DNA of 56,497 nucleotides from an uncultured Clostridia bacterium (lineage in GTDB: Bacteria > Bacillota > Clostridia > Oscillospirales > Oscillospiraceae): the NCBI GenBank assembly GCA_946412355.1, contig CAMKGX010000007.1, positions 1 to 56,497 on the forward strand, given 5' to 3'. Below are positions 12,263-52,250 of the stretch, in pieces; the first letter of the stretch is position 1; every line of letters starts with the position of its first letter. The translations under genes were made by a program, and so were the position numbers. The notes below the pieces were generated by a model that saw only the letters and a program-made list of their open reading frames with translations, was not told where the DNA came from and searched no databases.

Positions 12263-12464
12263 AGCCTGTCAAAAAACGGCTCTGCCGTTTTTTGACAATG
12301 GGATTGCAGTCTACTACGCGCACGAATAGTGCGCCGTTGGCGCACTATTCGCACACTTCGTAGCCTGAGAAGTGAAAAAAGTGACGTACACGCCGTCAGT
12401 TTTTTCGGATTTCATGGGTTCGCGCCTTGCGAGGCGCGAAATCTGCGATGCTTTTGACAATCTG
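12263..12464 (-). repeat. Terminator-associated structured element, copy 1
   Basis: This is a 202-bp member of a four-copy family (others at 26870, 43099 and 52049). Read from right to left it starts CAGATTGTC and ends GACAGGCT. It contains four nested hairpins, including a TTCGCGCC/GGCGCGAA stem, a GAAAAAACTGACG-type stem, a CGAATAGTGCGCC stem and a terminal GTCAAAAAACGGC/GCCGTTTTTTGAC stem with a 3-nt loop. It follows the terminator of the leftward lipoprotein gene (12519-13451) and is followed by a second, decayed terminator. No ORF is conserved between copies. This copy has a C-C mismatch in the second stem where other copies pair. Confidence 0.85.
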
Positions 12465-12498
12465 AAAACCCCCGGCTCCCAAAGGAGCCGGGGGTTTT
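12465..12498. terminator. Terminator of the lipoprotein gene beside element copy 1
   Basis: A-tract, CCCCCGGCTCC/GGAGCCGGGGG stem and T-tract; functional in both directions. Confidence 0.85.
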
Positions 12499-12518
12499 AA
12501 TTTAGCAGGGAAACGGCG

Positions 12519-13451
12519 TTATTCCAACCCGCTGACGGCGATCACCGCCAGGTTGGGCTCGCCCTGGCCGGTGGCGGCGTCAAAGCCGCTGTCCCGCAGC
12601 CACAGCTGGCCGCTGCCCATGCAGATGCCCTCGCCGTTGACGAACATGTTGTGGCAGCTCTCGTCCGTCAGCGCCTGACGGTCGCTTTCGCTCATGTGCT
12701 TGCCCTCCATGTACTGCAGGAACTCCGCCGGGTCGTGGGCCACGTAATCGGGATACAGGGTGATGGGGTATTCCACCACCTGGGACATGGCCTCCCAGTC
12801 CTCGTCCAGGTAGAACTCCTTCACCATCTTGGCGAAGCTGTCCACGTCCCGGGCGTCCATGTTGGTGAGGGAGGCGTAGTGATCCGCGTCGGTAATCAGG
12901 TCCCCGGCGTCCGCCAGCAACTCCTCCGCGGTGCAGGCGGTAAGGCCGCTGTTGTCGGCCAGGAAGGTGTCGGGTACGGTGTCGGCCCAGGCGTTCATGG
13001 CGCTCCACTGGTCCATGGCGGCGTCCATGGCGTCGTTATCCTCCCGCACCAGGCGCACGTCGGTGGGGTAGTCGGCCACGAAGTAATAGCCCGCGTCATC
13101 CTTGGCGAACACTCTCTCACCGGGGATGTCGTACACTACGTTGTCCACGGCCTCGCCCTTGGTGATGCGGCGGATGGTCACCAGGTTGCCGGCGCCATCG
13201 TCCTCCCAGCCCTGGGCCTTGGCGGCGTCCAGAGAGGCCGTCTCCGCCACGGCGAACACCGTGCCCCGGTCGTTCTCTTCCGGCGTCTCCACCGTCAGCA
13301 GATCCTTGTATTCCGCCGGGATGGTGAGGGTATACCCCTGGTTGGTGACGGTCTCGTTTTCGTTATCCACGGCGGGGGTGTCGGCCTTGCTGCCGCAGCC
13401 CGCCAGCAGCACCAGCGCCAGTGCCGGCGCCAGCCATTTTGTCAGTTTCAT
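12519..13451 (-). CDS. Hypothetical secreted lipoprotein
   Basis: This 310-aa protein has a signal peptide (MKLTKWLAPALALVLLAGC) ending in the lipobox LLAGC, so it should be lipidated on Cys19 and anchored to the outer face of the membrane. After an acidic linker the mature part contains GYTLTIPAEYKDLLTV and VFAVAETASLDAAKA segments, as in small domains of Firmicute lipoproteins of unknown role, then a mostly acidic helical region and a C-terminal GEPNLAVIAVSGLE. I cannot assign a ligand. AAGGAGGA precedes the ATG; a TTGACA/CATAAT promoter lies just upstream. It is monocistronic. Confidence 0.8.
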   Translation of the reverse strand: MKLTKWLAPALALVLLAGCGSKADTPAVDNENETVTNQGYTLTIPAEYKDLLTVETPEENDRGTVFAVAETASLDAAKAQGWEDDGAGNLVTIRRITKGEAVDNVVYDIPGERVFAKDDAGYYFVADYPTDVRLVREDNDAMDAAMDQWSAMNAWADTVPDTFLADNSGLTACTAEELLADAGDLITDADHYASLTNMDARDVDSFAKMVKEFYLDEDWEAMSQVVEYPITLYPDYVAHDPAEFLQYMEGKHMSESDRQALTDESCHNMFVNGEGICMGSGQLWLRDSGFDAATGQGEPNLAVIAVSGLE

Positions 13452-13477
13452 ATTGCATTCCTCCTTGTTGGGACCTC

Positions 13478-13506
13478 ATTATGCACTTGAAATATGGCAA
13501 TGTCAA
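13478..13506 (-). promoter_or_regulatory. Promoter of the lipoprotein gene
   Basis: On the minus strand: TTGACA (13501-13506), a 17-bp spacer and CATAAT (13478-13483). Confidence 0.65.
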
Positions 13507-13592
13507 CGGGAATAGTGACGAAAAACGGCAAGGGAAACCGGATAAGACCCATTCATACTGCCGCCGCCATGCGCCGTTTTTTCACAAAGCCG

Positions 13593-14294
13593 TCACAGCA
13601 GCGCCATAAGGGCGCGGATGCGCCGGCAGTTTTTCGGCAGCGCTTCCCGCCCCTTGGGTGACTGTGCCGTGTGGATAAAGGCGCTGTCCATCCCCACCGC
13701 CGCCGCGCCGCCGCAGTCGCATACCGGGTCGTTGCCCACCATGAGGGAGTCCTCCGCCCGGCAGCCCAGACCCGCCAACAGCCCGAAAAAGGCGGGGGAG
13801 GGCTTCTTCACCCCGGCGTCGCTGGACAGGAGAACGCGGTCAAACCGATGATACAGCCCCAACGACCGCAGCTCCGGCTCCGTGAAGCACCGCTGGGCGT
13901 TGGACAGCAGTACCACCCGCTTGCCCCGCCGCCGCAGCTCGTCCAGCACCTCCGCCGCCCCGGGGTATAGCCGCAAGTGCCGCAGCGACAGCGCCCGGAA
14001 GGCGAGAGCCATGTGGCGGCCCTCCTCCGCCGTCAGCGTCTGCCCGAAGGCTGCCCCCAGCCGGGGCCACACCGCCGCCAGGTCGATTTCCGCGTTGCCA
14101 ACCCCCATGGCTTCCTCCGCCTCCCGACACAGCCGCAGGTACGCCTCCCGCAGCGTGTCCGCCCGGCAGTCCATGCCCAGAAACCGGCAGTAGTGGCAAA
14201 ATCGCTCCCAGAACAGGGGGCTTTCCTCGTCGGTGCGGATGTCCACCAACGTGCCATACAGGTCAAAAATGTAATTGTCGTATTCTTTTTTCAT
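13593..14294 (-). CDS. HAD-superfamily hydrolase, YjjG/nucleotidase-like
   Basis: This 233-aa cytosolic phosphatase-type protein has the HAD motifs in order: nucleophile motif I YIFDLYGTLVD (residues 7-17), motif II VVLLSNAQRC, motif III lysine in GVKKPSPAFF, and motif IV MVGNDPVCDCGGA. The DLYGT form of motif I and the cap domain arrangement resemble YjjG-type nucleotidases and related small-phosphate hydrolases; the substrate is not fixed by sequence. I chose the ATG at 14294 (MKKEYDNYIF) with AGAGGTGG upstream; the frame extends further upstream without a ribosome-binding site. It is divergent from the membrane-protein gene at 14438. Confidence 0.85.
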   Translation of the reverse strand: MKKEYDNYIFDLYGTLVDIRTDEESPLFWERFCHYCRFLGMDCRADTLREAYLRLCREAEEAMGVGNAEIDLAAVWPRLGAAFGQTLTAEEGRHMALAFRALSLRHLRLYPGAAEVLDELRRRGKRVVLLSNAQRCFTEPELRSLGLYHRFDRVLLSSDAGVKKPSPAFFGLLAGLGCRAEDSLMVGNDPVCDCGGAAAVGMDSAFIHTAQSPKGREALPKNCRRIRALMALL

Positions 14295-14374
14295 GGCGCT
14301 CCACCTCTTTTGCCCCCACTCTACCAAAATTTCGCCCCCTCCGCAAGATAAACCGCCCATCTTTCCCGCCCGTC

Positions 14375-14403
14375 TTGCACAACGGGGGCAAAGCGGGTAT
14401 AAT
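14375..14403 (+). promoter_or_regulatory. Promoter of the 280-aa membrane protein gene
   Basis: TTGCAC (14375-14380), a 17-bp spacer and a perfect TATAAT (14398-14403). Confidence 0.7.
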
Positions 14404-14437
14404 ATGGGCAAATCCCCTATCCATAAGGAGAAACGAT

Positions 14438-15280
14438 ATGTTGAAAAAGCTGTTCCCCGGCAGGATATCCTGGTGGGAAGTCATCATTTTTGCCGTGGTT
14501 ACCGCCCTTATGACGGCGGCGTTCCTCATTGTCCCCATCTTTGAAAACACCTCCTTCCAGCGCATGGGCGTGTATCTGGAGGCGTGGATCTTTTTTGCCG
14601 TCCTCATTATGGCAAATTGCCAAAAGCCCCTGGAGTCGGCCTTGAAAACCTTCGTTTTCTTCCTGGTCAGCCAGCCCCTCATCTACCTCTTCCAGGTGCC
14701 CTTCAGCGCCATGGGCTGGGGCCTGTTCGGCTATTATCGCACCTGGTTTATCTGGACGCTTTTTACCTTTCCCATGGCCTTTGTGGGCTGGTATATTACG
14801 AAAAAGAATTGGCTCTCCCTGCTGATCCTCTCCCCGGTACTGGTCTTCCTGGCCTACACGGCGCTGGACGCCGCCCACTCCCCCCGCCTGCTGGTGACGG
14901 CCCTCTTCTGCCTGGGGCAGATCGTGCTGTACCTCTGGGCCTTCACGTCCAAGCCCCTCCAGAAGCTGCTGGGCCTGGCGGTGCCTCTGGCGGTGGCGGC
15001 GGTGGTGCTTCTGCTGCGCACGGCGGCGGTGGAGGTGGACTGCGCCGTGTTCTTCCCCGACTACCCGGTGTTCTCCGAAAGCGCCACCGTCACCGAGGAC
15101 AACGACAACCTCACCCTTTCCCTCGAGCCCTATGACGACAGCGCCATGCTCCGCGTCCACGCCACCGCCTACGGCGACACCGACTTCACCGTCACCGACG
15201 GCGGCGCCACCTATGCTTACACCCTGCAAATCCGCCTGGACGACGGCGGCAGCGTCGTCGTCAACGTGGTAAAACGCTGA
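14438..15280 (+). CDS. Hypothetical polytopic membrane protein with C-terminal extracytoplasmic domain
   Basis: This is a 280-aa protein with about seven hydrophobic segments in the first ~200 residues (for example WWEVIIFAVVTALMTAAFLIV, LLILSPVLVFLAYTALD and LLGLAVPLAVAAVVLLLR). They are followed by an ~80-residue, Asp/Thr-rich beta-type tail (ESATVTEDNDNLTLSLEPYDD...VNVVKR) that is probably outside the cell. I do not recognise the family. AAGGAG precedes the ATG at 14438, which excludes the longer frame from 14375 that overlaps the promoter. A strong bidirectional hairpin terminates it against the convergent histidine kinase gene. Confidence 0.75.
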   Translation: MLKKLFPGRISWWEVIIFAVVTALMTAAFLIVPIFENTSFQRMGVYLEAWIFFAVLIMANCQKPLESALKTFVFFLVSQPLIYLFQVPFSAMGWGLFGYYRTWFIWTLFTFPMAFVGWYITKKNWLSLLILSPVLVFLAYTALDAAHSPRLLVTALFCLGQIVLYLWAFTSKPLQKLLGLAVPLAVAAVVLLLRTAAVEVDCAVFFPDYPVFSESATVTEDNDNLTLSLEPYDDSAMLRVHATAYGDTDFTVTDGGATYAYTLQIRLDDGGSVVVNVVKR

Positions 15281-15294
15281 CGCGAATTCCAAAT

Positions 15295-15339
15295 AAAAAT
15301 ACCGCTTTTGCCGAAATAATCAGCAAAAGCGGTATTTTT
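15295..15339. terminator. Bidirectional terminator
   Basis: A 17-bp perfect stem (AAAAATACCGCTTTTGC and its complement) with an 11-nt loop, between convergent genes. Confidence 0.85.
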
Positions 15340-15349
15340 GCAATCAAAA

Positions 15350-17163
15350 TCAAATTCTGTCAAACATCATCTGGGCTTTGAACAGATCGCCGTCCACCGT
15401 CAGGTTGAATTCCCCCTTTTGCAGCTTCACCAGGCTGGCGGCGATGTTCAGCCCCAGGCCGCTGCCCTCGGTGGAGCGGGAGGCGTCCCCCCGGACGAAC
15501 CGCTCCGTCAGCTCGTCGGCGGACACTTTAGAGGTGTGCGGGAGATGTTTTTCACCGTCAGCCGCACCTTGTAGCCCTGCAAGCTGGCGGACACATACAC
15601 CCGCGTCCCCGGCAGGGCGTATTTGCACACGTTGCCCAGCAGGTTGTCCATCACCCGCCACAGCAGCCGCCCGTCCGCCATGATGCGGGGCGCCGCCTCG
15701 TCCGTTGTCAGCACCGGCTCCAGCCCGGCCTGCCGCAGCCGCTGCTCATATTCACCCATCACCTGGTGGAGAAATACATTCACGTCCGTGGCCTCCCAGC
15801 TGACAGCCACGTTGCCGGTGGCGGCCTTGGCCGCCTCCACCAGATCCTCTGTCAGCCGCCGCAGCCGCTGGGACTGGCGATCCAGCACGTCGATATACTC
15901 CCGGGCCGCGGCGTTTTCCACGTCCTCCTTTTTCAGCAGATCCACATAGTTGACAATGGAGGTCAGGGGCGTCTTGATGTCGTGGCTCACGTTGGTAATC
16001 AGCTCCGTTTTCAGCCGCTCCGACTTCATCTGCTCCGCCACCGCCTTCTGCACGCCCTGCTGCACCGCGTTCAGATTCTCCCCGTGGCGGCGGAAGTCGC
16101 CCCACAGCCGGGTGGTGTCCACCGCCCGGTCATACTGCCCCTCCGCCAGGGCTTGCCCCCCTTTTTGCAGCTTTCGCAAGCCGATGGCCAGATAGAGAAT
16201 CCCAACGCCCAGGAGCGCGTGTACCACCAGCAGCAACAGCAAAAAGGCCCCGTCGTGCCCAAAGCTGACGCACACGAAGTCAAACACCAGCACCGCCGCC
16301 ACCCCGACGGCGGTTTTCGCTACTAGCGGCAGATGGCGCACCACGTACCCCAGCCACCGCAGCAGCTGCCAGAGGCCCCGCAGACCGTAGCCGATGATGG
16401 CCCGCCGTGTCACTTCGCCCGCCTTGCACTGGGCGGCGAAGGCGATCAGCGTCAAGAGGCCCCAGGCCACCGCCGCCGTCAACAGCACCACCGCTTCGTC
16501 AAAGGGGGCGTCCATCATCATCGCCACCAGCAGTAATATCGCCGCCACCGCGCCGTCCATGGGCAGCTTGTCAAACCACGTCAGGTGGATGCCCTCGTGG
16601 CCCTGCCAGTGCCCGGCGGACGCCAGGGAAAACACAAGGAAAAACAGGGTCAGCCCCACCGCCGCCAGCCCTGCCGTCACCGGTGCGGCCCGGTGATCCG
16701 CCAGGTAGAGCATCACCATGGTCTCCGGGCTGTCGGGCCGGAAATCCTCTTTCAGCGAGGCGGTGATGTGCCATCCGGCAAAATTCTCCGCGGTGTAATC
16801 CGACATAGCCGCCGTCACCGTAATCAGCACAGCCCCGTCATATTCCGCCGTCCGGGCCACCACCTGCCCCTGGTCGTCCGTCACCACCAGCACGCAGTTG
16901 TCGGCGGCGAAGCTGCGGGCAAACCGGGTCTCGACGTCCTCGCTGTCCGCTGTGTCCGCCAGATACCACGCCGCCCGCTCCAGCGAGCCGCTGCACAGCC
17001 GGGTATAGTAGCCCTGCCGCAGCCGCTCGCCGCCATCGGCCCAGGCGTTGGTATCCGCCAGCAGCACCACCCCCGCAGCGCAGGCCAGCGCCGCCGCCAG
17101 GCAGAGAAGCGCCAGCGCAAAGGCCAGTATTTTGGCCCATACCTTGTCCAAACACCGCTTCAT
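15350..17163 (-). pseudogene. Sensor histidine kinase, frameshifted near the C-terminus
   Basis: Membrane sensor kinase: TM1 at residues 10-36, an extracytoplasmic domain of about 120 residues, several further membrane segments (about 160-325), the H-box NVSHDIKTPLTSIV with His394, and the N-box DNLLGNVCKYA at 506-516. The frame then breaks: it reads SRTPLKCPPTS and stops at 15508. The missing ATP-lid part (VSADELTERF, GSGLGLNIA, ending MFDRI) continues in another frame to 15350. Adding one G in the AAAG run near 15525 restores a 604-aa kinase, so this is a single-base deletion or a sequencing error. Its start overlaps the response regulator stop by 4 bp, as for a coexpressed pair. Confidence 0.85.
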
Positions 17164-17852: not shown

Positions 17853-17888
17853 TTGGGGCCTCCTGTGGGAAAAATCAATTATTTTTCA

Positions 17889-19157: not shown

Positions 19158-19187
19158 GTGAGTTCCTTTCTCCGCCCACGCCCGCAA

Positions 19188-19457: not shown

Positions 19458-19460
19458 TGG

Positions 19461-19803: not shown

Positions 19804-19825
19804 ATTTGATACCAACCGGCTATGT

Positions 19826-20500: not shown

Positions 20501-21841
20501 ATGAGTCAACAAAGAGAACGTCTGGGCAGCCGTTTAGGCTTCATCATGCTCAGTGCCGGCTGCGCCATCGGCTGCGGCAACGTGTGGAAGTTCCCCTGGA
20601 TGACCGGCCAGTTTGGCGGCGGCGGCTTCGTGCTGGTGTACATTCTGTGCCTGATCATTCTGGGCCTGCCTGTTATGACCATGGAGTTTGCCATGGGCCG
20701 CGCCTCCCAGGCCAGCCCTGTGGGTATGTACCAGAAGCTGGAGAAGCCCGGCCAGAAGTGGCACATCCACGGCTATTTCGCCCTGTTGGGCAATATCGCC
20801 CTTATGGCCTTCTACACCGTGGTCACCGGCTGGATGATCTACTATTTCGTCATGTTCCTCCTGGGCCGCACCGCGAACCTGGGCTTCGTGACCATGATCA
20901 CCAACCCCACCGTCAACGTGGTCTATCTGGCCATCGCCGTGGTCGTGGGCTTCCTGGTGCTGAGCTTTAATCTCCAGGGCGGCCTGGAGCGGGTCACCAA
21001 GTACATGATGACCGCCCTCCTGGTGCTGATGATCGTCCTGCTGGTCCACAGCGCCACCTTGCCCGGCGCCAAGGCCGGCCTCAGCTTCTACCTGGTGCCC
21101 GATTTCAGCAAAATCAATCTGTCCGTCATCGTGGGCGCCATGAACCAGGCCTTCTTCACCCTCAGCGTGGGCATCGGCTCCATGGCCATCTTCGGCAGCT
21201 ACATCGGCAAGGATCGCGCCCTCATGGGCGAGTCCGTCAACGTCATCGCCCTGGATACCCTGGTGGCCATTATGGCCGGCTTCATCATCTTCCCCGCCTG
21301 CATGACCTATAACATCGAGGTGGGCGCCGGCCCCGCCCTGCTGTTCGACACCATGGCCACCGTGTTCAACAACATGGCCGGCGGCCGCATCTGGGGCACG
21401 CTGTTCTTCCTGTTCATGGTGTTCGCCGCCATGTCCACGGAGCTGGCCGTGTTTGAGAACATTCTGGCCTGCGTCCGCGAGCTCACCGGCTGGAGCCGCC
21501 CCAAGGGCAGCATCATCTGCGGCGTGGGCATCTTCCTGCTGGCCCTCACCACCGCCCTGGGTTACAGCGTCTTCACCTTCCAGCCCTTTGCGGAGGGCAC
21601 CGCCTGGCTGGACTTCTGGGATTTCATCGTCAGCACCAACCTGCTGCCCATCGGCTCCTTTATCTTCGCCGTGTTCTGCTGCTGGAACTTCGGCTGGGGC
21701 TGGGACAAGTTCGTCCTGGAGGCCAACACCGGCAAGGGCATGAAGGTGCAGGCCTGGATGAAGCCCATCTTCAAGTTCGTGGTGCCTATCATCGTCATCG
21801 CCCTGTATGTCTACGGCCTGGTGACCTTTAAGTGGAACTGA
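20501..21841 (+). CDS. Sodium-dependent NSS/SNF family amino-acid transporter
   Basis: This 446-aa membrane protein has about eleven hydrophobic helices and the LeuT/NSS fold. The first helix carries GFIMLSAGCAIGCGNVWKFPW, the Na+ and substrate binding segment; MTMEFAMGRASQASPVG and the unwound helix-6 region FFTLSVGIGSMAIFGSYIGKD follow. Bacterial members import amino acids or related amines with Na+; the substrate (often Trp, Tyr or Leu) is not readable here. Length and topology fit the 11-helix bacterial form. A GAGAGG site about 13 bases upstream is somewhat distant from the ATG. The gene is single, with its own promoter and a bidirectional terminator. Confidence 0.93.
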   Translation: MSQQRERLGSRLGFIMLSAGCAIGCGNVWKFPWMTGQFGGGGFVLVYILCLIILGLPVMTMEFAMGRASQASPVGMYQKLEKPGQKWHIHGYFALLGNIALMAFYTVVTGWMIYYFVMFLLGRTANLGFVTMITNPTVNVVYLAIAVVVGFLVLSFNLQGGLERVTKYMMTALLVLMIVLLVHSATLPGAKAGLSFYLVPDFSKINLSVIVGAMNQAFFTLSVGIGSMAIFGSYIGKDRALMGESVNVIALDTLVAIMAGFIIFPACMTYNIEVGAGPALLFDTMATVFNNMAGGRIWGTLFFLFMVFAAMSTELAVFENILACVRELTGWSRPKGSIICGVGIFLLALTTALGYSVFTFQPFAEGTAWLDFWDFIVSTNLLPIGSFIFAVFCCWNFGWGWDKFVLEANTGKGMKVQAWMKPIFKFVVPIIVIALYVYGLVTFKWN

Positions 21842-21861
21842 CGCTTTCATTGCAATAATAC

Positions 21862-21893
21862 AAAATGGCTCCACCTTTCGGCGGAGCCATTTT
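21862..21893. terminator. Bidirectional terminator
   Basis: AAAATGGCTCC/GGAGCCATTTT stem between the convergent transporter and small-protein genes. Confidence 0.85.
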
Positions 21894-21902
21894 GCTGTTT
21901 TT

Positions 21903-22076
21903 TCACCGCAGCCGGTCGCTGACGTCGTCAATGGCCGTGTCCACGGCGTTGCCCACCTTCTGCATGGCCTTGCCCACGGTGGTTTTCCGCCCGCCGATAC
22001 TGGGCGCCACCATGTCCAACGCCACGCCGGCCACCATGCCGATGGCCATGCCTCTGATAAAGGCTGTCGCTTTCAT
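21903..22076 (-). CDS. Small YtxH-like hydrophobic protein, 57 aa
   Basis: The short protein has one Gly/Ala-rich hydrophobic segment (FIRGMAIGMVAGVALDMVAP) followed by a polar helix (KAMQKVGNAVDTAIDDVSDRLR). Small single-pass proteins of the YtxH/gas-vesicle-like type look similar, but the match is only compositional. I prefer ATG at 22076 to the GTG at 22085, because AAAGGAG is correctly spaced for the ATG. It is divergent from the OMP-decarboxylase-like gene. Confidence 0.6.
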   Translation of the reverse strand: MKATAFIRGMAIGMVAGVALDMVAPSIGGRKTTVGKAMQKVGNAVDTAIDDVSDRLR

Positions 22077-25166: not shown

Positions 25167-25907
25167 ATGCTGGAGCTGCAAAACATTTCCTACCGCGTCT
25201 CCACCCCCGAGGGGGAGACGGATATTTTGAAAGACGTGAGCCTTACCGTGCCCGACGGCAAGCTGGTGGTGTTCACCGGCCCCAACGGCGGCGGCAAGAC
25301 CACCTTGGCCAAAATCATCATGGGCCTGGCCACCCCCACCGCCGGCCGAGTCATCTGGAACGGCGAGGACGTCACCGACCTGGACATCACGGAGCGGGCC
25401 CGCCGGGGCATCAGCTACGGCTTCCAGCAGCCGCCCCGGTTCAAGGGCATCACCGTCCACGACCTGCTGCTGCTGGCGGCAGGGGAGGAGAAGCTCAGCA
25501 AGGACCGCTGCTGCCAGTATCTCACCCGTGTGGGCCTGTGCGCCAACGACTATCTGGACCGGGAGGTGGACGCCTCTCTCTCCGGCGGCGAGGTGAAGCG
25601 CATCGAGATCGCCACCATCCTGGCCCGCAACGCCCAGCTGATGATTTTCGACGAGCCCGAGGCCGGCATCGACCTGTGGAGCTTCGCCCGTCTCACCGAG
25701 ACCTTCGAGCAGATTCACGCCAAGCATGCGTCCACTATGATTATCATCTCCCACCAGGAGCGCATCATCCGCCTGGCGGACGAGATCGCCGTGGTAGCCG
25801 GCGGGCAGATTGCCCACCGTGGCACCACCGATGAGGTGTTCCCCATGATTCTGGCGGACACCCTGGGCGGCTGCCCCGTCATTGAGCGAAAGGAGGTCAC
25901 ATTATGA
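25167..25907 (+). CDS. sufC: SufC-like ABC ATPase of a minimal Suf (SMS-type) Fe-S system
   Basis: The 246-aa soluble ATPase has Walker A GPNGGGKTT (residues 39-47), Q-loop YGFQQPPRFKG, signature SLSGGEVKR, Walker B LMIFDEPEAGID and switch His in IIISHQE. The EAGID and SGGEVKR forms are typical of SufC, which drives the SufB/D scaffold that builds Fe-S clusters rather than a membrane transporter. The downstream SufB/D-like gene overlaps it by 4 bp (ATGA), so the two are translationally coupled. No sufS, sufU or second scaffold gene is nearby, matching the two-gene SMS layout described for many anaerobes. Confidence 0.92.
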   Translation: MLELQNISYRVSTPEGETDILKDVSLTVPDGKLVVFTGPNGGGKTTLAKIIMGLATPTAGRVIWNGEDVTDLDITERARRGISYGFQQPPRFKGITVHDLLLLAAGEEKLSKDRCCQYLTRVGLCANDYLDREVDASLSGGEVKRIEIATILARNAQLMIFDEPEAGIDLWSFARLTETFEQIHAKHASTMIIISHQERIIRLADEIAVVAGGQIAHRGTTDEVFPMILADTLGGCPVIERKEVTL

Positions 25908-26836
25908 TTACCGAGATCGACCGGGACCTTCTGGAGAAGATCGCCGACCTGACGGGCCAGCCCGTAGGCGCCATCAACATCCGCAAGGACGGTGGCTGCG
26001 AGGTGCGCCAGTCCACGGAGCATATCAAGATCGAGCCCCAGACGGAGGAGGGCCGCCAGGGCATCGTCATCCGCATCCTCCCCGGCACCCGGGGCGAGAC
26101 GTGCCACATCCCCGTCATCATCAGCAAGTCCGGCCACAGCGAGCTGGTGTATAACGATTTCTATGTGGGCGACGACTGCGACGTGGAGATCGTGGCCGGC
26201 TGCGGCATCCACAACTCCGGCTGCAACGAGAGCCGCCATGACGGCGTCCACACCTTCTACATCGGCAAAAACAGCCGCGTCCGCTACGCCGAGAAGCACT
26301 ACGGCGAGAACGACCCCGGCCAGACCGGCGCCAACATTATGAACCCCAAAACCGTGGTCTATCTGGGCCAGGGCAGCACCATGCAGATGGACACCGTCCA
26401 GATCCGGGGCATCGATTCCACCCATCGTACCACCCAGTTCGTCTGCGAGGCGGGCAGCGAGGTGGTGGTCACCGAGCGCCTGCTGACCCACGGCAGGCAG
26501 TTGGCCGAGAGCGATATGGAGATTCAGCTCAACGGCGACGACGCCAAGGGCCGGGTCATCTCCCGCTCCGTGGCCCAGGACGACAGCCACCAGATTTTCC
26601 GCCCCGTGGTGGTGGGCAACGCCGCCTGCTTCGGCCACGTCCAGTGCGACAGCATCATCATGGGCCACGCCTGCGTGGAGTCCGTCCCCGCCATCACCGC
26701 CAACTCCACCGAGGCCCAGCTCATCCACGAGGCCGCCATCGGCAAAATCGCCGGCGACCAGCTTTTGAAGCTGGAGACCCTGGGCCTCACCGCCGAGGAG
26801 GCGGAGGACACCATCCTCAAAGGCTTCCTGGCGTGA
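25904..26836 (+). CDS. SufB/SufD-family scaffold of a minimal Suf (SMS-type) system
   Basis: This 310-aa protein forms the predicted partner of the SufC-like ATPase. The central part is the right-handed beta-helix of SufB/D proteins: repeated short strands such as SELVYNDFYVGDDCDVEIVAG, SRVRYAEKHYGEN, STMQMDTVQIRGIDS and GRVISRSVAQDDSHQIFRP. The C-terminal segment AITANSTEAQLIHEAAIGKI plus LGLTAEEAEDTILKGFL is the SufC-binding helix-strand region. It is shorter than SufB (about 470 aa) because the N-terminal domain is nearly absent. Whether it nucleates clusters itself is inferred from the lack of another scaffold. Element copy 2 follows its terminator. Confidence 0.88.
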   Translation: MITEIDRDLLEKIADLTGQPVGAINIRKDGGCEVRQSTEHIKIEPQTEEGRQGIVIRILPGTRGETCHIPVIISKSGHSELVYNDFYVGDDCDVEIVAGCGIHNSGCNESRHDGVHTFYIGKNSRVRYAEKHYGENDPGQTGANIMNPKTVVYLGQGSTMQMDTVQIRGIDSTHRTTQFVCEAGSEVVVTERLLTHGRQLAESDMEIQLNGDDAKGRVISRSVAQDDSHQIFRPVVVGNAACFGHVQCDSIIMGHACVESVPAITANSTEAQLIHEAAIGKIAGDQLLKLETLGLTAEEAEDTILKGFLA

Positions 26837-26845: not shown

Positions 26846-26869
26846 AAAAAGGCCGCCCTCCAGCGGCCT
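26846..26869 (+). terminator. Terminator hairpin preceding element copy 2
   Basis: AGGCCGC/GCGGCCT stem after an A-tract; the T-tail is absent because element copy 2 begins at once. Confidence 0.55.
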
Positions 26870-27070
26870 CAGATTGTCAAAAAAGCATCGCAGATTTCGC
26901 GCCCGCAGGCGCGAACCATTGAAATCCGAAAAAAGTGACGACATGCGCGTCACTTTTTTCACTTCTCAGGCTACGAAGTGTGCGAATAGTGCGCCGGAGG
27001 CGTACTATTCGTGCGCGTAGTAGACTGCAATCCCATTGTCAAAAAACGGCAGAGCCGTTTTTTGACAGGC
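26870..27070 (+). repeat. Terminator-associated structured element, copy 2
   Basis: This 201-bp copy runs CAGATTGTC...GACAGGC with the same four hairpins as the other copies. It follows the sufC-sufB transcript terminator with the shared polarity, and is followed by a second hairpin (GCCGCC/GGCGGC then CTTTT, 27075-27093). The third stem has a G-U wobble (CGAATAGTGCGCC against GGCGTACTATTCG) where copies 1 and 4 have G-C; read on the other strand it would be an A-C mismatch. Confidence 0.87.
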
Positions 27071-27074
27071 GCAA

Positions 27075-27093
27075 GCCGCCGGCGGCCTTTTCC
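27075..27093 (+). terminator. Second terminator hairpin after element copy 2
   Basis: GCCGCC/GGCGGC palindrome followed by CTTTT; a compact version of the hairpin at 26846. Confidence 0.5.
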
Positions 27094-42942: not shown

Positions 42943-43067
42943 GCCCTTCTATCCTTTCCGATGGTGAAAATTTGCGCCGCCGCGCCATGCCATCCCGTTC
43001 ACTTTCGCCCTTATTATCCGCAGTTTCCGCTGGGTTATTCTGTTCAATTTCCGTTTTTTTTCGTCAA

Positions 43068-43097
43068 AAAAAGAGATGCCTTCTGGCATCTCTTTTT
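43068..43097. terminator. Second terminator hairpin beside element copy 3
   Basis: GAGATGCC/GGCATCTC stem with TTCT loop, A-tract and T-tract. Confidence 0.8.
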
Positions 43098-43098: not shown

Positions 43099-43300
43099 AG
43101 CCTGTCAAAAAACGGCTATGCCGTTTTTTGACAATGGGATTGCAGTCTACTACGCGCACGAATAGTACGCCTCCGGCGCACTATTCGCACACTTCGTAGC
43201 CTGAGAAGTGAAAAAACTGACGCGCATGTCGTCAGTTTTTTCGGATTTCATGGGTTCGCGCCTGCGGGCGCGAAATCTGCGATGCTTTTTTGACAATCTG
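43099..43300 (-). repeat. Terminator-associated structured element, copy 3
   Basis: This 202-bp copy, read right to left as CAGATTGTC...GACAGGCT, follows the terminator (43301-43329) of the leftward zinc-ribbon gene and is followed by another terminator hairpin (43068-43097). Its second stem is GAAAAAACTGACG/CGTCAGTTTTTTC, whereas copies 2 and 4 have GAAAAAAGTGACG/CGTCACTTTTTTC: both partners of one pair have changed. The two flanking terminators are not identical here. Confidence 0.87.
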
Positions 43301-43329
43301 AAAAGGAGACGCCGTGGGAGTCTCCTTTT
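43301..43329 (-). terminator. Terminator of the zinc-ribbon gene
   Basis: AAAAGGAGAC pairs with GTCTCCTTTT around a 9-nt loop. Confidence 0.7.
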
Positions 43330-43371: not shown

Positions 43372-43812
43372 TTATTGCAGCGGCGCGCCGCACTTGGCGC
43401 AGAACTTGCCCCGGCTCATCTCGTGGCACACCGGGCACTCCACCTCCGGCTCCTCGGCCGCGGCTTCCGCTCCACTCTCCGCCAGGTCCACAGCCTCCAC
43501 GCAGCCGCCGTTTTCCTTGGCGGCCTTCAGCTTTTCGATGCGGCGGCGGTTTGCCTCCACGGCGGAGAGCACGTCCCGCAGCGCCTCGGGGATCTCCCCC
43601 TTGTACTCCTGGCAGAACCACTGGCCGATGGCCTGGTAGTTCCGCTCCAGCTCCCGCTGCTCCTGGGCCAGGGCCACGGCCAGCTTGGCGGAGTCCGCCA
43701 CGTCCCGGGCCTTGTCCCCGGCCACCTCTGCCACGTCCCGCACCTTCTCGGTGGCCAGCTCAGCCATGCCCTTTGCCTTATCCTTCAGTCCGTCCAGATT
43801 GATGAATGCCAT
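43372..43812 (-). CDS. Zinc-ribbon protein with amphipathic helical N-terminus
   Basis: The 146-aa protein begins with repeat-like amphipathic helices (KDKAKGMAELATEKVRDVAEVAGDKARDVADSAKLAVALAQEQRELE), has a middle segment AIGQWFCQEYKGEIPEALRDVLSAVEANRRRIEKLK, and ends in a zinc ribbon, CPVCHEMSRGKFCAKCG, with four Cys in a CxxC-x8-CxxC pattern. Similar small proteins in Clostridia have no assigned function. GGAAGGAGA precedes the ATG at 43812. It lies 51 bp downstream of glpK in the same direction and could be partly cotranscribed with it. Element copy 3 follows its terminator. Confidence 0.8.
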   Translation of the reverse strand: MAFINLDGLKDKAKGMAELATEKVRDVAEVAGDKARDVADSAKLAVALAQEQRELERNYQAIGQWFCQEYKGEIPEALRDVLSAVEANRRRIEKLKAAKENGGCVEAVDLAESGAEAAAEEPEVECPVCHEMSRGKFCAKCGAPLQ

Positions 43813-45357: not shown

Positions 45358-45393
45358 AGTGCAAATCCTCTTTTCAATAGCGGTGGAGTGTGG

Positions 45394-45399
45394 TATACT
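45394..45399 (+). promoter_or_regulatory. -10 box upstream of the lipase operon
   Basis: TATACT in the 141-bp divergent region between glpK and the lipase gene; the -35 is not clear. Confidence 0.45.
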
Positions 45400-45498
45400 A
45401 TATATGAAGATTCTGGCAGGAAAGGGAATCGCAGCCGCGCAAGATGCCGTGCCCTTCCTTTTCTCTCAACAGTATATCACAGAAAGGATGGTTTGACC

Positions 45499-47003: not shown

Positions 47004-47034
47004 CGCCTTATTTTACAACAAGGAGGATGATCGC

Positions 47035-47844
47035 GTGCAGACCTATGACGTATTGATCATCGGCGGCGGCCCCGCCGCCACCAGCGCCGCCATGACGTTG
47101 AAAAACCGCAACAAGACCATGGCCGTGGTGGCCAACAAGGCCGAGACCGGCAACCTCTACAAGGCGGAGAAAATCACCAATTACCCCGGCCTGCCCCCCA
47201 TGTCCGGGGCGGAGATGGCGGAGCTGTTCCGCCGCCAGCTCATCGACACCGGGGCGGACATCATCGAGGGCCGTGCCCTGTCCGCCATGTCCATGGGCGA
47301 CACCTTCGGCGTGTCGGTGGGCAGCCAGTTCTACATGGCCCGCTGCCTCATCATCACCGCCGGCACCACCCGCGAGAAGCTCTATCCCGGCGAGGGCGAG
47401 TTTTTGGGTCGGGGCGTCAGCTACTGCGCCACCTGCGACGGCATGCTCTACCGGGGCAAGACGGTGGCGGTGGTAGGCGGCGGCGAGGAGGCCGCCCAGG
47501 ACGCCGACTTCCTGGAGGGCATCGGCTGCACCGTGCTGCGCTTCCCCCAGAACGGCCGCTACGAGATCTCCGGCGAGGCCAAGGCCAGCACCCTCACCTT
47601 CAACGGCGAGAGCCACAGCGTGGACGGCGTGTTCATCATCAAGGACACCGTCTCCGTCACCCGCCTGGTGCCGGGCCTGACCTATGAGGCAGGCGGCATT
47701 GTGGTGGACCGCCGCATGGCCACCGCCGTGCCCGGTGTGTTCGCCGCCGGGGACTGCACCGGCAAGCCCTTGCAGCTGGCCAAGGCGGTGGGGGAGGGCA
47801 ACGTAGCCGCCCTGTCCGCCTGCGACTATCTGGACAAAAAGTGA
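47035..47844 (+). CDS. Thioredoxin reductase-like flavoprotein, short NAD(P)H domain
   Basis: The 269-aa protein has the FAD motif IIGGGPAATSAA (residues 8-19), the redox disulfide YCATCDG (131-137), a second dinucleotide motif VVGGGEEAAQDADFL and the FAD-closing VFAAGDCTGKPLQLAKAVGEGNVAA. It is about 40 residues shorter than ordinary TrxB; the loss lies in the NADPH domain, and the HRRxxxR NADPH motif is absent. Ferredoxin-dependent flavin thioredoxin reductases of Clostridia also lack that motif, so this may take electrons from ferredoxin rather than NADPH. GTG start with AAGGAGGA. Last gene of the lipase-UDG operon. Confidence 0.85.
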   Translation: MQTYDVLIIGGGPAATSAAMTLKNRNKTMAVVANKAETGNLYKAEKITNYPGLPPMSGAEMAELFRRQLIDTGADIIEGRALSAMSMGDTFGVSVGSQFYMARCLIITAGTTREKLYPGEGEFLGRGVSYCATCDGMLYRGKTVAVVGGGEEAAQDADFLEGIGCTVLRFPQNGRYEISGEAKASTLTFNGESHSVDGVFIIKDTVSVTRLVPGLTYEAGGIVVDRRMATAVPGVFAAGDCTGKPLQLAKAVGEGNVAALSACDYLDKK

Positions 47845-47885
47845 TTCCACGCTGTAATCTTTTCGACAGATAATACGAAAAATAA

Positions 47886-47922
47886 TCAAAAAAGGCATCG
47901 GTTTTTTTAGCCGATGCCTTTT
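47886..47922. terminator. Bidirectional terminator
   Basis: AAAAGGCATCGG pairs with CCGATGCCTTTT around a T-rich loop; between convergent genes. Confidence 0.8.
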
Positions 47923-47931
47923 CATGTGGAT

Positions 47932-48894
47932 TCAATAGCCTAATTTTCTGTCCACCAGCCGCAGCAGGGGGAGACCTTTAGCGTACCGTTCCAAATCTTC
48001 GCAGAATAACGCCACGTCTCGGTCCCGTGTCACCGCCACGGAGAAGTTGCCGGCGCAGTGGGGGGTCAAAATGAGGTTCGGCGCCGTCCACAGGGGGCTG
48101 TCCTGCGGCAGCGGCTCCGGCACCATCACGTCCAGGGCCGCCCCGGCGATGGCGCCGGCGGTCAGGGCCGCCACCAGCGCGTCCTGGTCAATGGCGGTGC
48201 CACGGCCCACGTTGACCACAATGGCGTTTTCCGGCAGCAGGGCCAGCCGTTCCCGGCTGAGTATCCCCGCCGTCTCCGCCGTGCCGGGCAGGGCCATCAC
48301 CAGGATGTCCGTCCGGGGCAAGGCATCGTCCAGGGCCGTAAAGGGCAGGGTCTCGTCAAAGTCCGGGGCGGGCTTGCCGCTGCGCCGCACGCCGCAGAGG
48401 TGGGCGGCCCCCATGGCCCGGAACCGCCGGGCTACATTGCTGCCGATGTCGCCGGTGCCCAGCACCGTCACCCGGCTGCCGTAAATGGAACCCATGGGCA
48501 CCGGGGCGTGCCACTGCCGCCGCGCCATGCTCTGGGCGTACAGGGGGTAGCGCCGCAGCAGCAGCAGCGTCACCATCATCACGTGCTCGGCGATGGTGAC
48601 GCCGTAGGCCCCGGCGGAGTTGGTGAGGAGTACCCCCGGATGGGCATACAGCCCCTCGTCCACGTAGTTGTCCACCCCGGCAAAGCTGGCGCAGAACCAC
48701 CGCAGGGCCGTCATGTCCTTCAACTGTGCCGGTTTGGGCAGACCGTAGACGATTTCATATTCCGCCGCCTGGTCCGCCGTCAGATCGTCGGCGGTGGAGA
48801 AATCCACCGCAAAGCCCGTCTTTTCCGCGGCGGCGCGGATGATTTCGCGGTGGCCTTCGTCCATAAACTGTTCCAGCACAAGGATTTTTCTCAC
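47932..48894 (-). CDS. D-2-hydroxyacid dehydrogenase (NAD(P)-dependent)
   Basis: This is a 320-aa two-domain enzyme. The dinucleotide motif is VTVLGTGDIGSNVARRF; catalytic Arg is in VVNVGRGTAIDQD, Glu in the MVPEPLP region and His in LTPHCAGN. Substrate-domain features include SFAGVDNYVD and TNSAGAYGVTIAEHVM. It belongs to the phosphoglycerate/glyoxylate-hydroxypyruvate reductase-like branch; the substrate is not fixed. I chose the GTG at 48894, with AAGGAGGG 8 bases upstream, over the ATG at 48921 (no site) and a much longer frame to 49179 that overlaps the upstream gene. It lies 23 bp after the FAD dehydrogenase gene, so the two form an operon. Confidence 0.88.
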   Translation of the reverse strand: MRKILVLEQFMDEGHREIIRAAAEKTGFAVDFSTADDLTADQAAEYEIVYGLPKPAQLKDMTALRWFCASFAGVDNYVDEGLYAHPGVLLTNSAGAYGVTIAEHVMMVTLLLLRRYPLYAQSMARRQWHAPVPMGSIYGSRVTVLGTGDIGSNVARRFRAMGAAHLCGVRRSGKPAPDFDETLPFTALDDALPRTDILVMALPGTAETAGILSRERLALLPENAIVVNVGRGTAIDQDALVAALTAGAIAGAALDVMVPEPLPQDSPLWTAPNLILTPHCAGNFSVAVTRDRDVALFCEDLERYAKGLPLLRLVDRKLGY

Positions 48895-48917
48895 GGTTTC
48901 GCCCTCCTTATATCGTG

Positions 48918-50489
48918 TCATTGTCTCTCGTCGGCCAAAAGCTGCTCGGCGCAGCGCATGCCGTCGGCGGCGGCGGACAGGATGCCCCCGGCGTAGCCCG
49001 CCCCCTCGCCGCAGGGGAGCAGCCCCCGCAGGGCCGATTGATAATCCTCTCCCCGGGGCATCCGCACCGGGCTGGAGGAGCGGCTCTCCACCGCCGTCAG
49101 CACCGCGTCGGGGTGGGCAAAGCCCGGCAGCTTGCCGTCCAGAAGGGGCAGCGCCGCTTCCAGCGATTCCGTCATCCAAGGCGGCAGGCAGTCATGCAAG
49201 TCGCACCACTTGACACCCCTTGTGTAGCTGGGGATGACCCGGCCGGGGCCTGCGGAGGGCCGGTGGAGCAAGAAATCCTCCACCCGCTGGGCCGGGGCCA
49301 CGTAGTCGCCGCCCCCCAGGGCGTAGGCGTTTGCCTCCAGCGCCCGCTGCAAGGCGTATCCCGCCAGGGGGTGGGAGGAGGGGAAGTCGTCGGGGGTGAC
49401 GCTCACCAGCAATCCGCCATTACTATTCTCTCTGTCCCGGGCGTACTCGCTCATGCCGTTGGTGACGGCCCGACCCACCTCGCTGGCCGCCGCCACCACC
49501 TGGCCGCCGGGGCACACGCAGAAGGAGAACACCCCCCGGTCGCCTACGTGGCAGGCCAGCTTATAGGTGCTGGCGGGCAGGCCGGGGTGGCCCGCCATGG
49601 CCTTGTACTGCTGCGCGTCCATATCGGCCTGCCGGTGCTCGATGCGCACGCCCATGGCGAAGGGCTTGGCCTCCATGGGCACACCGGCGGCGTACAGGGC
49701 CTCCACCGTGTCCCGGGCGCTATGGCCCAGGGCCAGGATGCACCGGCGGCAGGGCAGGGTGTAGGGGCCGTCGGGGCCTGTCACCGTCAGGGCGGACAGG
49801 TGTCCGTCCTCCGTCTGGAGGCCCGTCAGCTTGTGGCCGAAGCGAATATCCGTGCCCAGGGCCAGCAGCTCCCGCCGCAGGTTTTGGAGCATCACGTGGA
49901 GATAATCGGTGCCCACGTGGGGCTTGGCGTCATATAAAATGGTCTCCGGCGCACCGTTTTGCACCATTTCCTCCAAAATGAAGCGGTGGCGCACGTCCCG
50001 GGTGCCGGTGTTCAGCTTGCCGTCGGAAAAAGCCCCGGCGCCGCCCTCGCCGAACTGGACGTTGCACTCCGTGTCCAGCTCGCCGGTGCGCCAGAACCGG
50101 GCCACCGTTTCCTGCCGGACTTCGGCGCATTGGCCCCGTTCCAGCAGAATGGGTGGCCGCCCGCATTTGGCCAGCACCAGCGCCGCAAAGAGGCCCGCCG
50201 GCCCTGCGCCCACCACCACCGGCGGCGCGGCATCGGAGGGCGCGGCAGGGGGGAGGGTATACCGCTCCGGGGCGTAGAGGGGTGCCTTTTTCCGGGGGCG
50301 GACGCCCTTTGCCAGGGCCACCGCTACGCTGTAAACATATTTTACCTCACGCCGGGCGTCGATGGAGCGGCGGAGGATTTGGAGGGCCGTAATGTCCCCC
50401 GGCTTTACGCCCAGCGCCCGGGCCGCCCCCACCTTTAATTGGGCCGCGTCCTGCCCCGGCGACAGCGTCAGGCCGTCAATGCGCAGCAT
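48918..50489 (-). CDS. FAD-dependent dehydrogenase of the COG2509 type
   Basis: The 523-aa protein starts with a small helical/basic domain (residues 1-80: GDITALQILRRSIDARREVKYVYSVAV), followed by an FAD-binding Rossmann core, VVVGAGPAGLFAALVLA (about 92-108), then NVQFGEGGAGAFSDGKLNT, and ends GLLPCGEGAGYAGGILSAAADGMRCAE. Proteins of this widespread family are annotated as NAD(FAD)-utilizing dehydrogenases; their reaction is unknown. AAAGGAGGC precedes the ATG at 50489. It is the first gene of a two-gene leftward operon with the hydroxyacid dehydrogenase. Confidence 0.9.
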   Translation of the reverse strand: MLRIDGLTLSPGQDAAQLKVGAARALGVKPGDITALQILRRSIDARREVKYVYSVAVALAKGVRPRKKAPLYAPERYTLPPAAPSDAAPPVVVGAGPAGLFAALVLAKCGRPPILLERGQCAEVRQETVARFWRTGELDTECNVQFGEGGAGAFSDGKLNTGTRDVRHRFILEEMVQNGAPETILYDAKPHVGTDYLHVMLQNLRRELLALGTDIRFGHKLTGLQTEDGHLSALTVTGPDGPYTLPCRRCILALGHSARDTVEALYAAGVPMEAKPFAMGVRIEHRQADMDAQQYKAMAGHPGLPASTYKLACHVGDRGVFSFCVCPGGQVVAAASEVGRAVTNGMSEYARDRENSNGGLLVSVTPDDFPSSHPLAGYALQRALEANAYALGGGDYVAPAQRVEDFLLHRPSAGPGRVIPSYTRGVKWCDLHDCLPPWMTESLEAALPLLDGKLPGFAHPDAVLTAVESRSSSPVRMPRGEDYQSALRGLLPCGEGAGYAGGILSAAADGMRCAEQLLADERQ

Positions 50490-50564
50490 GGCGACGCCTC
50501 CTTTCGTTCACAAAAAAAACACAAATCCGTCATAAGATTTTAACTCTCATTTCAGTTTTCGTGG

Positions 50565-50570
50565 TATAGT
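50565..50570 (+). promoter_or_regulatory. -10 box of the htrA gene
   Basis: TATAGT preceded by GTGG, about 60 bp upstream of the ATG; I see no strong -35. Confidence 0.4.
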
Positions 50571-50629
50571 ATGAATCGTGTCAAGGATATCTTATCATAA
50601 TGGCCTTTGAAAATAAAGGAGGAATCCGT

Positions 50630-51976
50630 ATGTATAACGATGAATTCAAAGAGTATCACTACGCCCGGGGCGAGACGGCCCGGGATGAGTACAGCCCCGT
50701 GGCCGCCCCGGCGGAGACCGCGCACCAGGTGGAGCGTGGCCCCGCGCCCAGGCAGGGCCTGGGGGTGAAGGCGGTGGCCCTGGTGCTGGTGTGCGCCCTG
50801 GTATCGGGCCTGTGCGGCTTCGGCGGCGCGGCGGCCTACGGCGCCTTCCACACCAACAAGACCTCCGTCAACCAGGCGGCCCAGACCGCCGAGGAGGTGG
50901 CCGTCACCGTCAAGCAGGTGGAGAGCGGCGAGAAGATGACCCCCGCCCAGGTGTACGCCAGCACCGTCAACAGCGTGGTGTCCATCAACTCCACCGGCAC
51001 CACCTATAACGTCTTCGGCCAGCAGAGCCAGTCCTCCTCCAGCGGCACCGGCTTTATCATCACCGCCGACGGCTACATTGTCACCAACCAGCATGTGGTT
51101 TCCTGCGCCGACACCGTGCAGGTCACGCTGTACAGCGGCCAGACCTATGCCGCCACCGTTATCGGCGGCGACAGCGACTACGACGTGGCTGTCATCAAGA
51201 TCGACGCCGCCGGCTTGCAGCCCGTCACCCTGGGCAGCAGCGAAAGCGTCAACGTGGGCGACACGGTGCTGGCCATCGGCAACCCCCTGGGGGAGCTGAC
51301 CTTCTCCATGAGCCAGGGCATCGTGTCCTCGGTGAACCGTGCCATCAACGTGGACGGCACGCCCTTTAACATGATCCAGGTGGACGCCTCCATCAACCCC
51401 GGCAACTCCGGCGGCCCCCTGATGAACCTGTACGGCCAGGTGGTGGGCATCGTGTCCGCCAAGTACAGCGAGTACTCCTCCACCACCGTGGAGGGCCTGG
51501 GCTTCGCCATCCCCATTGACGATGTCACCTCCGTCATCACCGAGATCATGGAGAGCGGCTCTGTGTCCGACAAGGCCTATATGGCCATCACCTGCGGCAC
51601 CATGACCGCCGAGATGGCCGCCCAGTACCAGTATGACGTGGATACCGGTGTGTTTGTGTACAGCGTAGTGTCCGGCGGCGCCGGCGAGAAAGCGGGGCTG
51701 CGGATGGGCGACGTCATCACCAAGCTGAATGACACCGCTATCACCACCCGCACCGACCTTACCGCCGCGCTGAAGAGCTTCCGCGCCGGCGACACTGCCA
51801 CCTTGCAGGTCTACCGGGAGGGCAGCTACGTGGACGTGACCATCACCTTCGACGCCCGGCCCCAGACCACCGGCACCGAGCAGCAACAGCAGCAGCCCCA
51901 GCAGCAGTACCCCTACGGCTACCAGACCCCCGGCATGGACGATTTCTTCCGCTACTTCTTCGGCAACCGGGGCTGA
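50630..51976 (+). CDS. htrA: HtrA/DegP-like S1C serine protease
   Basis: This 448-aa membrane-anchored protease degrades misfolded proteins at the cell surface. It has a short cytoplasmic N-terminus, one membrane helix (VKAVALVLVCALVSGLCGFGGAAAYGAF, about residues 46-73), and a trypsin-like domain with catalytic His in TNQHVVS, Asp in DYDVAVIKID and Ser in NPGNSGGPL. One PDZ domain follows (GVFVYSVVSGGAGEKAGLRMGDVITKLND). It ends in a Gln-rich tract and an aromatic tail, MDDFFRYFFGNRG. AAAGGAGGA precedes the ATG at 50630. Element copy 4 follows its terminator. Confidence 0.95.
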   Translation: MYNDEFKEYHYARGETARDEYSPVAAPAETAHQVERGPAPRQGLGVKAVALVLVCALVSGLCGFGGAAAYGAFHTNKTSVNQAAQTAEEVAVTVKQVESGEKMTPAQVYASTVNSVVSINSTGTTYNVFGQQSQSSSSGTGFIITADGYIVTNQHVVSCADTVQVTLYSGQTYAATVIGGDSDYDVAVIKIDAAGLQPVTLGSSESVNVGDTVLAIGNPLGELTFSMSQGIVSSVNRAINVDGTPFNMIQVDASINPGNSGGPLMNLYGQVVGIVSAKYSEYSSTTVEGLGFAIPIDDVTSVITEIMESGSVSDKAYMAITCGTMTAEMAAQYQYDVDTGVFVYSVVSGGAGEKAGLRMGDVITKLNDTAITTRTDLTAALKSFRAGDTATLQVYREGSYVDVTITFDARPQTTGTEQQQQQPQQQYPYGYQTPGMDDFFRYFFGNRG

Positions 51977-52014
51977 CGCAACAGCTTTTTCTCATCCTTT
52001 TTCTCTCCTCATAC

Positions 52015-52049
52015 AGAAAACGCGGCTCCGAAAGGGGCCGCGTTTTCCC
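52015..52049 (+). terminator. htrA terminator, first of two identical copies
   Basis: CGCGGCTCC/GGGGCCGCG stem with A- and T-tracts. The 35 bp are identical to 52253-52287. Confidence 0.88.
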
Positions 52050-52250
52050 AGATTGTCAAAAAAAGCATCGCAGATTTCGCGCCCGCAGGCGCGAACCATT
52101 GAAATCCGAAAAAAGTGACGACATGCGCGTCACTTTTTTCACTTCTCAGGCTACGAAGTGTGCGAATAGTGCGCCAGAGGCGCACTATTCGCGCGCGCAG
52201 TAGACTGCAATCCCATTGTCAAAAAACGGCATAGCCGTTTTTTGACAGGC
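52049..52250 (+). repeat. Terminator-associated structured element, copy 4
   Basis: A 202-bp copy (CAGATTGTC...GACAGGC) following the htrA terminator with the shared polarity. It is bracketed by 35-bp identical direct repeats of that terminator (52015-52049 and 52253-52287), so terminator plus element reads as a 238-bp unit followed by a second terminator. All four hairpins are intact, with a fully paired G-C in the third stem where copies 2 and 3 have a wobble. Flank identity suggests this is the most recent copy. Confidence 0.9.

Follow-up and report, generated by a model that had tools for sequence, protein, structure and literature searches.

The window analyzed here is the whole of a 56,497-bp stretch of DNA, contig CAMKGX010000007.1 (C7) in the 2.06-Mb draft genome (labeled G000) of an uncultured Clostridia bacterium of the family Oscillospiraceae. 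It carries four copies of an intergenic repeat that is very probably a non-autonomous transposon, resembling a miniature inverted-repeat transposable element (MITE), for whose movement a DDE transposase of the IS1182 family would act in trans. The features that carry this reading, namely ends shared with IS1182-family elements, duplications the size of the target hairpin, and empty sites in related genomes, are legible in the sequences themselves, as is a covarying structure in the interior of the element.

Terminator hairpins on both sides of the element

A sequence-only reading of the window had described the four copies as homologous, non-coding, and rich in hairpins, each starting directly after a terminator and ending in GACAGGC before a second terminator-like hairpin, and all of these points were borne out. 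The copies align from end to end, with boundaries within one or two bases of those first proposed, and copies 1, 3, and 4 are 93–98% identical to the copy at 26870. The 200-bp element has no open reading frame (ORF), hence no transposase of its own, and aligning 32 copies, three of the four window copies among them, predicts several hairpins for it. The CAGATTGTC start of each window copy lies directly after the terminator hairpin and the GACAGGC end precedes the second hairpin. This hairpin duplicates the first, without any mismatch over 33 bp at copy 4 and in diverged form at the other three, with 27 of 29 columns identical in the flank alignment of copy 1 (Table 1).

Table 1. Positions in the window of the four copies and their flanking hairpins
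Feature	Position	Strand	Remarks
Copy 1 of element	12264..12464	-	core 12304-12451
Terminator hairpin upstream of copy 1	12465..12498	-	after gene 12519-13451 (-)
Duplicated hairpin downstream of copy 1	12232..12260	-	5' arm diverged
Copy 2 of element	26870..27070	+	core 26885-27030
Terminator hairpin upstream of copy 2	26846..26869	+	after gene 25904-26836 (+)
Second hairpin downstream of copy 2, diverged	27073..27091	+	flank score 9, below duplication threshold
Copy 3 of element	43100..43300	-	core 43140-43285
Terminator hairpin upstream of copy 3	43301..43329	-	after gene 43372-43812 (-)
Second hairpin downstream of copy 3	43066..43097	-	flank score 13, just below duplication threshold
Copy 4 of element	52049..52250	+	core 52065-52210
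Terminator hairpin upstream of copy 4 (target duplication)	52016..52048	+	after gene 50600-51976 (+)
Exact duplicate of 52016-52048	52254..52286	+	downstream of copy 4

We read the element at 40 places in its own genome, the four window copies included; 32 of these have both flanks inside the contig and eight are cut by a contig edge. The usual length is about 201 bp. A 257-bp form, with 56 extra bp in the loop of stem 2, is exemplified by L018 (C11 25398-25654), L026, L027, and L160, and there is a shorter form of 184–186 bp; four copies are diverged, at 73–74% identity. Contigs also terminate at another eight 3' ends of the element (L052, L054, L057, L059–L063). Since copies or ends stand at the edges of contigs C3, C10, C11, C30, C32, C47, C49, and C50, and also of C53, C60, C62, C68, C89, and C2, the element breaks the draft assembly, and draft genomes of these bacteria break at the repeat. 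Within the genus, 16 of 32 genomes, the present one among them, match the element at E 1e-8 or better.

In order to test the association with hairpins, we scored stems of at least 9 bp within 40–45 nt of the element. Such a stem was present on at least one side of 26 of the 32 own-genome copies (upstream in 19, downstream in 25, on both sides in 18), whereas the rate was 1.7–2.0% in random stretches and 4.8% in 777 overlapping stretches taken from the window's intergenic DNA, in agreement with a dispersed non-coding element aimed at terminators. Stem length was used for this purpose, and the folding energy of 50-mers was dropped, 291 of 600 controls having passed it in this G+C-rich genome. 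Duplication of the hairpin, counted at a flank alignment score of at least 14, was detected for 17 of the 32 copies against 6 of 992 mismatched flank pairs, window copies 2 and 3 falling outside the 17. When 40 copies from nine relatives in the genus were added, 44 of 72 copies from ten genomes showed the duplication against 47 of 5112 mismatched pairs. The copies are insertions that, in the best-preserved cases, leave the whole terminator hairpin on each side.

Orthologous sites were read in three close relatives (G012, G016, and G023), and one-hairpin empty sites, the comparison that the sequence-only reading had proposed, were found for copies 2, 3, and 4. The copy 2 site is empty and holds a single hairpin in all three. 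At the copy 3 site, G012 and G016 lack the element and show one hairpin; G023 has the 257-bp form there, its 56-bp segment being the main difference from copy 3. At the copy 4 site, empty in all three, the alignments of the two flanks have 34 bp in common, corresponding to the duplicated hairpin. The reverse case also exists: G016 is occupied, in the other direction and with two hairpins, at a site where the window (54877-54912), G012, and G023 have a single hairpin. The copy 1 site in G016 carries an unrelated insertion within the hairpin. A second small repeat (GCGCAATTCATGTGCC.. hairpins) lies beside a terminator at 54947-55000 of the window; the stretch around it is present in this genome and G012 and absent from the G016 and G023 orthologs, and a longer, similar-looking insertion (L154) lies inside the copy-1-site hairpin of G016.

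The direction of the element relative to transcription was also considered. Genes were called by a codon model with preset amino-acid frequencies, a caller trained on the longest ORFs having been discarded for picking antisense frames. Among 31 full copies with both neighbors called, 8 were in tandem with the same direction, 6 in tandem with the opposite direction, 16 between convergent genes, and 1 between divergent genes; the tandem counts give p = 0.79. The element thus sits at gene ends without fixed polarity to transcription. The claim that it always points with the upstream gene holds for all four window copies, a small sample, and fails genome-wide; mixed polarity is among the outcomes that the sequence-only reading had named as speaking against it.

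No Rfam family was found at gathering score in the window or in 20 loci with copies, and a group II intron or other Rfam family was dropped as an identity; for class C group II introns the tandem counts were considered as well. A permissive Rfam search of copy 2 gave mir-9457 as best match, at 29.8 bits (E 0.0004) where the gathering score is 90; we regard this as a chance hairpin match. Phage and plasmid collections held no match for copy 2, and such an origin was dropped. The earlier statement that no known family is recognized therefore stands for Rfam and falls for the mobile features, as the ends, target, and duplication are of IS1182-family type.

Ends shared with IS1182-family elements

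The ends of the element, CAGATTGTCAAAAAA.../...TTTTTTGACAGGCTC, are similar to the ends found on insertion sequences (ISs) of the IS1182 family in related Clostridia, which follow the pattern CAGNNTGTC(A/G)AA.../...TT(C/T)GACANNCTG and of which the element has a MITE version; this likeness was judged by eye and pattern, with no statistic. Two IS copies in the genus illustrate it, L065 starting terminator-CAGTCTGTCAAAAAAC and L066 terminator-CAGCTTGTCAAAGAAC, compared with CAGATTGTCAAAAAA in the element. Divergent IS subfamilies read CAGCTTGTCAAAAAA...GACAGTCTC. The 499-aa transposase of L066 scores 397 bits to the IS1182 model NF033551 (cut-off 270).

We examined the best 80 of 218 relatives of the L066 protein, located by a scan of genome contigs; many come from two complete genomes, AP018533 and CP092441. 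Fifty-four of these loci have both ends and enough flank. A duplication of 18–64 bp (median 29) lies against both ends, at most one base away, in 40 of the 54, the end patterns having been set after examples were seen and the end pair with the best duplication taken, which favors duplications; 14 loci lack it. Nearly perfect hairpins make up 34 of the 40 duplications (paired fraction at least 0.75, versus none of the random controls), with a median paired fraction of 0.84 versus 0.41 in controls, and duplication length follows the number of paired bases with r = 0.97. At dozens of natural sites, the target duplication of a DDE-type element is thus as long as the target hairpin and changes in length along with it. 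Because the two lengths agree, these sites provide sequence evidence for structure-guided joining at both feet of the hairpin.

The mover of the element is most likely an IS1182-type transposase acting in trans. A DUF772 match occurs in 5 of the 32 genus genomes (G006, G007, G023, G027, and G030). G023 and G030 have both the match and element copies, the transposase of G030 being intact; G006, G007, and G027 have the match but no element match at 1e-8.

The conserved core

The interior of the element contains a 147-nt core, represented by a covariance model (R1) of 147 positions. At E 1e-6 the model finds the core in 128 of 250 genomes, spanning 68 of 106 genera, drawn from the host family. 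Of 295 genomes sampled from the order, 31 have the core at this threshold, and 13 of them belong to other families. Four genomes searched more fully gave 16, 23, 30, and 38 matches. The core may be an unnamed entry among the 3161 candidate structured RNAs of PMC8040213.

Aligned copies of the element, 32 from ten genomes, have 53 predicted pairs, 23 of them with changes on both sides. For the core, 51 sequences from across genera show changes on both sides at 26 of 38 pairs, with 331 compensatory cells versus 91 in shuffles and 52–88 in slid controls, and with 98.1% of cells paired versus 79.5% shuffled and 31–48% slid; the alignment was fitted to the covariance model and leans towards compensatory changes. 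There are 326 G-U cells and 19 A-C cells in all, and 57 and 19, respectively, where most cells of a pair are Watson-Crick. As five pairs account for 292 of the 326, and G-U is permitted in the predicted structure, an RNA of this strand is favored only mildly.

The core was not found at E 0.001 in 79 IS1182/DUF772 loci (409,793 bases; 6 from the genus DUF772 scan and 73 of the 80 loci related to L066), and the idea that it forms part of an autonomous IS1182 element was dropped. In two genomes of another genus (G230 and G174) it lies inside longer elements with IS1182-type ends; these ends are further out, and 8 of 14 loci re-read show the hairpin duplication. An automatic end search, which left out L224, L231, and L277, found both IS1182-type ends in 8 of 27 one-per-genome loci, all 8 duplicated, and a duplication in 10. 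The same search found both ends in 1 of 20 loci in G230 and 0 of 19 in G174, with duplications in 3 and 6, respectively, and many copies of the core in the family have no recognizable ends. A fluoride riboswitch lies near one core copy in G230 (L246 300-372, minus strand).

Conservation in place was examined in eight pairs of orthologous copies from different species, two genera being represented (Table 2). Of six G230/G174 pairs with matching flanks, L240/L273 was left out for differing element distances and L243/L277 for a match on one flank only.

Table 2. Identical columns in orthologous core copies and their flanks
Pair	Core	Upstream 60	Downstream 60 (hairpin 4)	Next 119 (mostly coding)
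L230/L232	138/146	50	39	115
L242/L263	122/128	35	50	93
L254/L271	140/147	35	57	112
L251/L260	86/146	20	46	85
L213/L214	137/145	47	57	113
L287/L294	142/145	59	59	106
L292/L298	119/151	37	54	95
L293/L299	126/132	40	56	113

These data bear on two explanations of the core. Possibly it is a structured RNA that is mobile and brings its own terminator hairpin; more fully, core and terminator-like hairpin would form a new mobile non-coding RNA class of this order, carried on IS1182-type ends that drop it into terminators and duplicate them, and selection would retain some end-decayed copies as resident RNAs or 3' modules. We advance this tentatively, its chances being somewhat short of even. At least as plausible, though also short of probable, is that the core is hitchhiking filler without an RNA function, its structure maintained by common descent from active copies and by self-correction of palindromes, as template switching can homogenize hairpins. 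The mixed orientation to neighboring genes fits such filler, as does the poor conservation of two of the eight cores (86/146 and 119/151). The conserved fraction of the core exceeds that of the downstream 60 columns in only four pairs and that of the next 119 columns in four; conservation downstream may mean that hairpin 4 belongs to the module, or just that a gene is close by. The core of L292 is also closer to a paralog (0.878) than to its ortholog. Set against the filler explanation are the covariation of 26 of 38 pairs across genera, the excess of G-U over A-C cells, limited as it is by the five pairs and a predicted structure that favors G-U, and the greater conservation of the core than of the upstream 60 columns in seven of the eight pairs. 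In addition, two such pairs are far closer mutually than to any paralog fetched (L230/L232, 94.5% versus 83% for the best; L242/L263, 95.3% versus 79%), which makes paralog exchange unlikely for them; exchange is possible for L254/L271 (92–93%). If the core is an RNA, it would be a common structured RNA of Oscillospiraceae that has no Rfam entry.

Proposed insertion mechanism and relation to known systems

In the mechanism that we propose, the transposase would recognize both the IS1182-type ends and their MITE version. Its target would be a perfect hairpin, in most cases that of an intrinsic terminator, and this hairpin would probably be extruded as a cruciform. The two element ends would join the two strands at the hairpin's two feet, so that the stagger equals the hairpin length. 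Gap repair would then leave the whole hairpin on both sides and spare the terminators of both neighbors, and the interior, a conserved structured module with a terminator-like terminal hairpin, may act as RNA. We infer the identity of the transposase, the cruciform intermediate, the repair step, and the transcription and usefulness of the core. A stagger that follows hairpin length from 18 to 64 bp would be hard to achieve for a fixed-stagger transposase on linear DNA. PMC5678879 draws, as a possibility for IS1272, a pathway b in which a cruciform is attacked at its 5' feet and the whole stem-loop would be duplicated; our data fit this model branch, the only form in which we have so far found joining at both hairpin feet described. 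We found no description of a hairpin-duplicating IS1182 MITE in open-licence PMC papers. Because both neighbors would keep a terminator, the repeat could spread at gene ends at little cost.

Several observations weigh against this account, in addition to the selection of IS end pairs described above. No duplication is detectable for 28 of the 72 copies; L008 and L027 have unrelated hairpins on their two sides, L010, L011, and L188 have half hairpins, and four old copies (L031, L032, L033, and L035) lack recognizable ends. Six solo hairpins of about 42 bp in the own genome (L048, L049, L050, L051, L055, and L056) have no duplicate, an unrelated second hairpin being present in three, and L261, a core copy in G174, is flanked by a non-folding direct repeat of a gene end. 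The copy 1 site in G023 is empty of the element, but its hairpin cannot be aligned, and a G012 copy near 21841-21905, where the window is empty, is flanked by hairpins that differ from each other and from that of the own genome. The right end reads CTC/CGC/CTT/CTG in the MITE versus CTG in IS1182, and the L066 copy has no recognizable right end. DUF772 has no match in the draft of the own genome, and its match in G023 is a mere fragment where a contig breaks off. A protein search of the drafts of G000, G012, G016, and G023 turned up no relative of the L066 transposase, so that the mover is a proposed one; G012, G016, and G023 hold near-identical element copies, and a multicopy IS may be missing from drafts.

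At L010, L011, L171, and L188 one side has a full hairpin and the other about half, perhaps through a cut in the loop or a later deletion. The solo hairpins carry both element ends and stand directly after an unduplicated terminator; in L048, L050, and L051 the closing TCA is apparently the stop codon of a convergent gene, by gene call.

A vertically inherited regulatory or bidirectional terminator element, with twin hairpins that are convergent terminators and owe nothing to insertion, is very unlikely: 16 of 31 copies do lie between convergent genes, hairpin 4 is terminator-like in both directions, and some copies are orthologous between species, but empty sites carry one hairpin, the near-exact twins differ in sequence from site to site, and IS1182 elements show the same duplication pattern. 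Slightly less likely still is movement on IS1182 ends by IS1272-like hairpin replacement followed by later convergence of the twins, which agrees with the 14 IS loci lacking a duplication and with IS1272 and TnSha1, which reportedly enter hairpins with deletion and no duplication (PMC4923244, PMC5678879), but is opposed by duplications flush with both ends at 40 of 54 IS loci and by MITE sites that go from one hairpin to two. Replacement with loss of the target hairpin does not match the empty sites or the IS duplications and is largely refuted for these members.

Among known systems, class C group II introns are located immediately behind terminator hairpins, in an orientation fixed relative to transcription. 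The element shares the position directly after terminators, a likeness to these introns that had been pointed out from the sequence alone, but the resemblance goes no further, as it has no intron domains or ORF, and its inverted ends, target duplication, and lack of fixed orientation are IS1182-like. In omega RNA/HEARO and the IS110 bridge RNA, a structured RNA segment lies inside a small mobile element. The core is likewise an RNA-like structured segment in a small mobile element; unlike them, it occurs in none of the 79 IS1182/DUF772 loci searched and has no known transposase partner inside the element. BOX, RUP, ERIC, and Correia are MITE-type repeats that are small, multicopy, intergenic, non-coding, and structured. 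The element is similar in these respects to them and to BrickBuilt (PMC4596501), but differs in targeting the terminator hairpin itself, in its hairpin-sized duplications, and in an interior that spans 68 of 106 genera sampled in one family.

The closest relatives are most likely in the IS1182 family (IS1272, TnSha1), with which the element shares related ends in the relatives read here, where the DDE transposase scores as NF033551. Hairpin or terminator targets without sequence specificity and no fixed orientation are also common to both (PMC4923244). The element differs from family members in having no transposase, and from IS1272, which is reported to target hairpins and terminators and to replace the hairpin with no duplication left (PMC4923244, PMC5678879), in that the whole hairpin is duplicated. 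Judged by these sequence features, the mobile part is a MITE-like IS1182 derivative that would use hairpin duplication; of the two findings, the core with its conserved structure was less to be expected.

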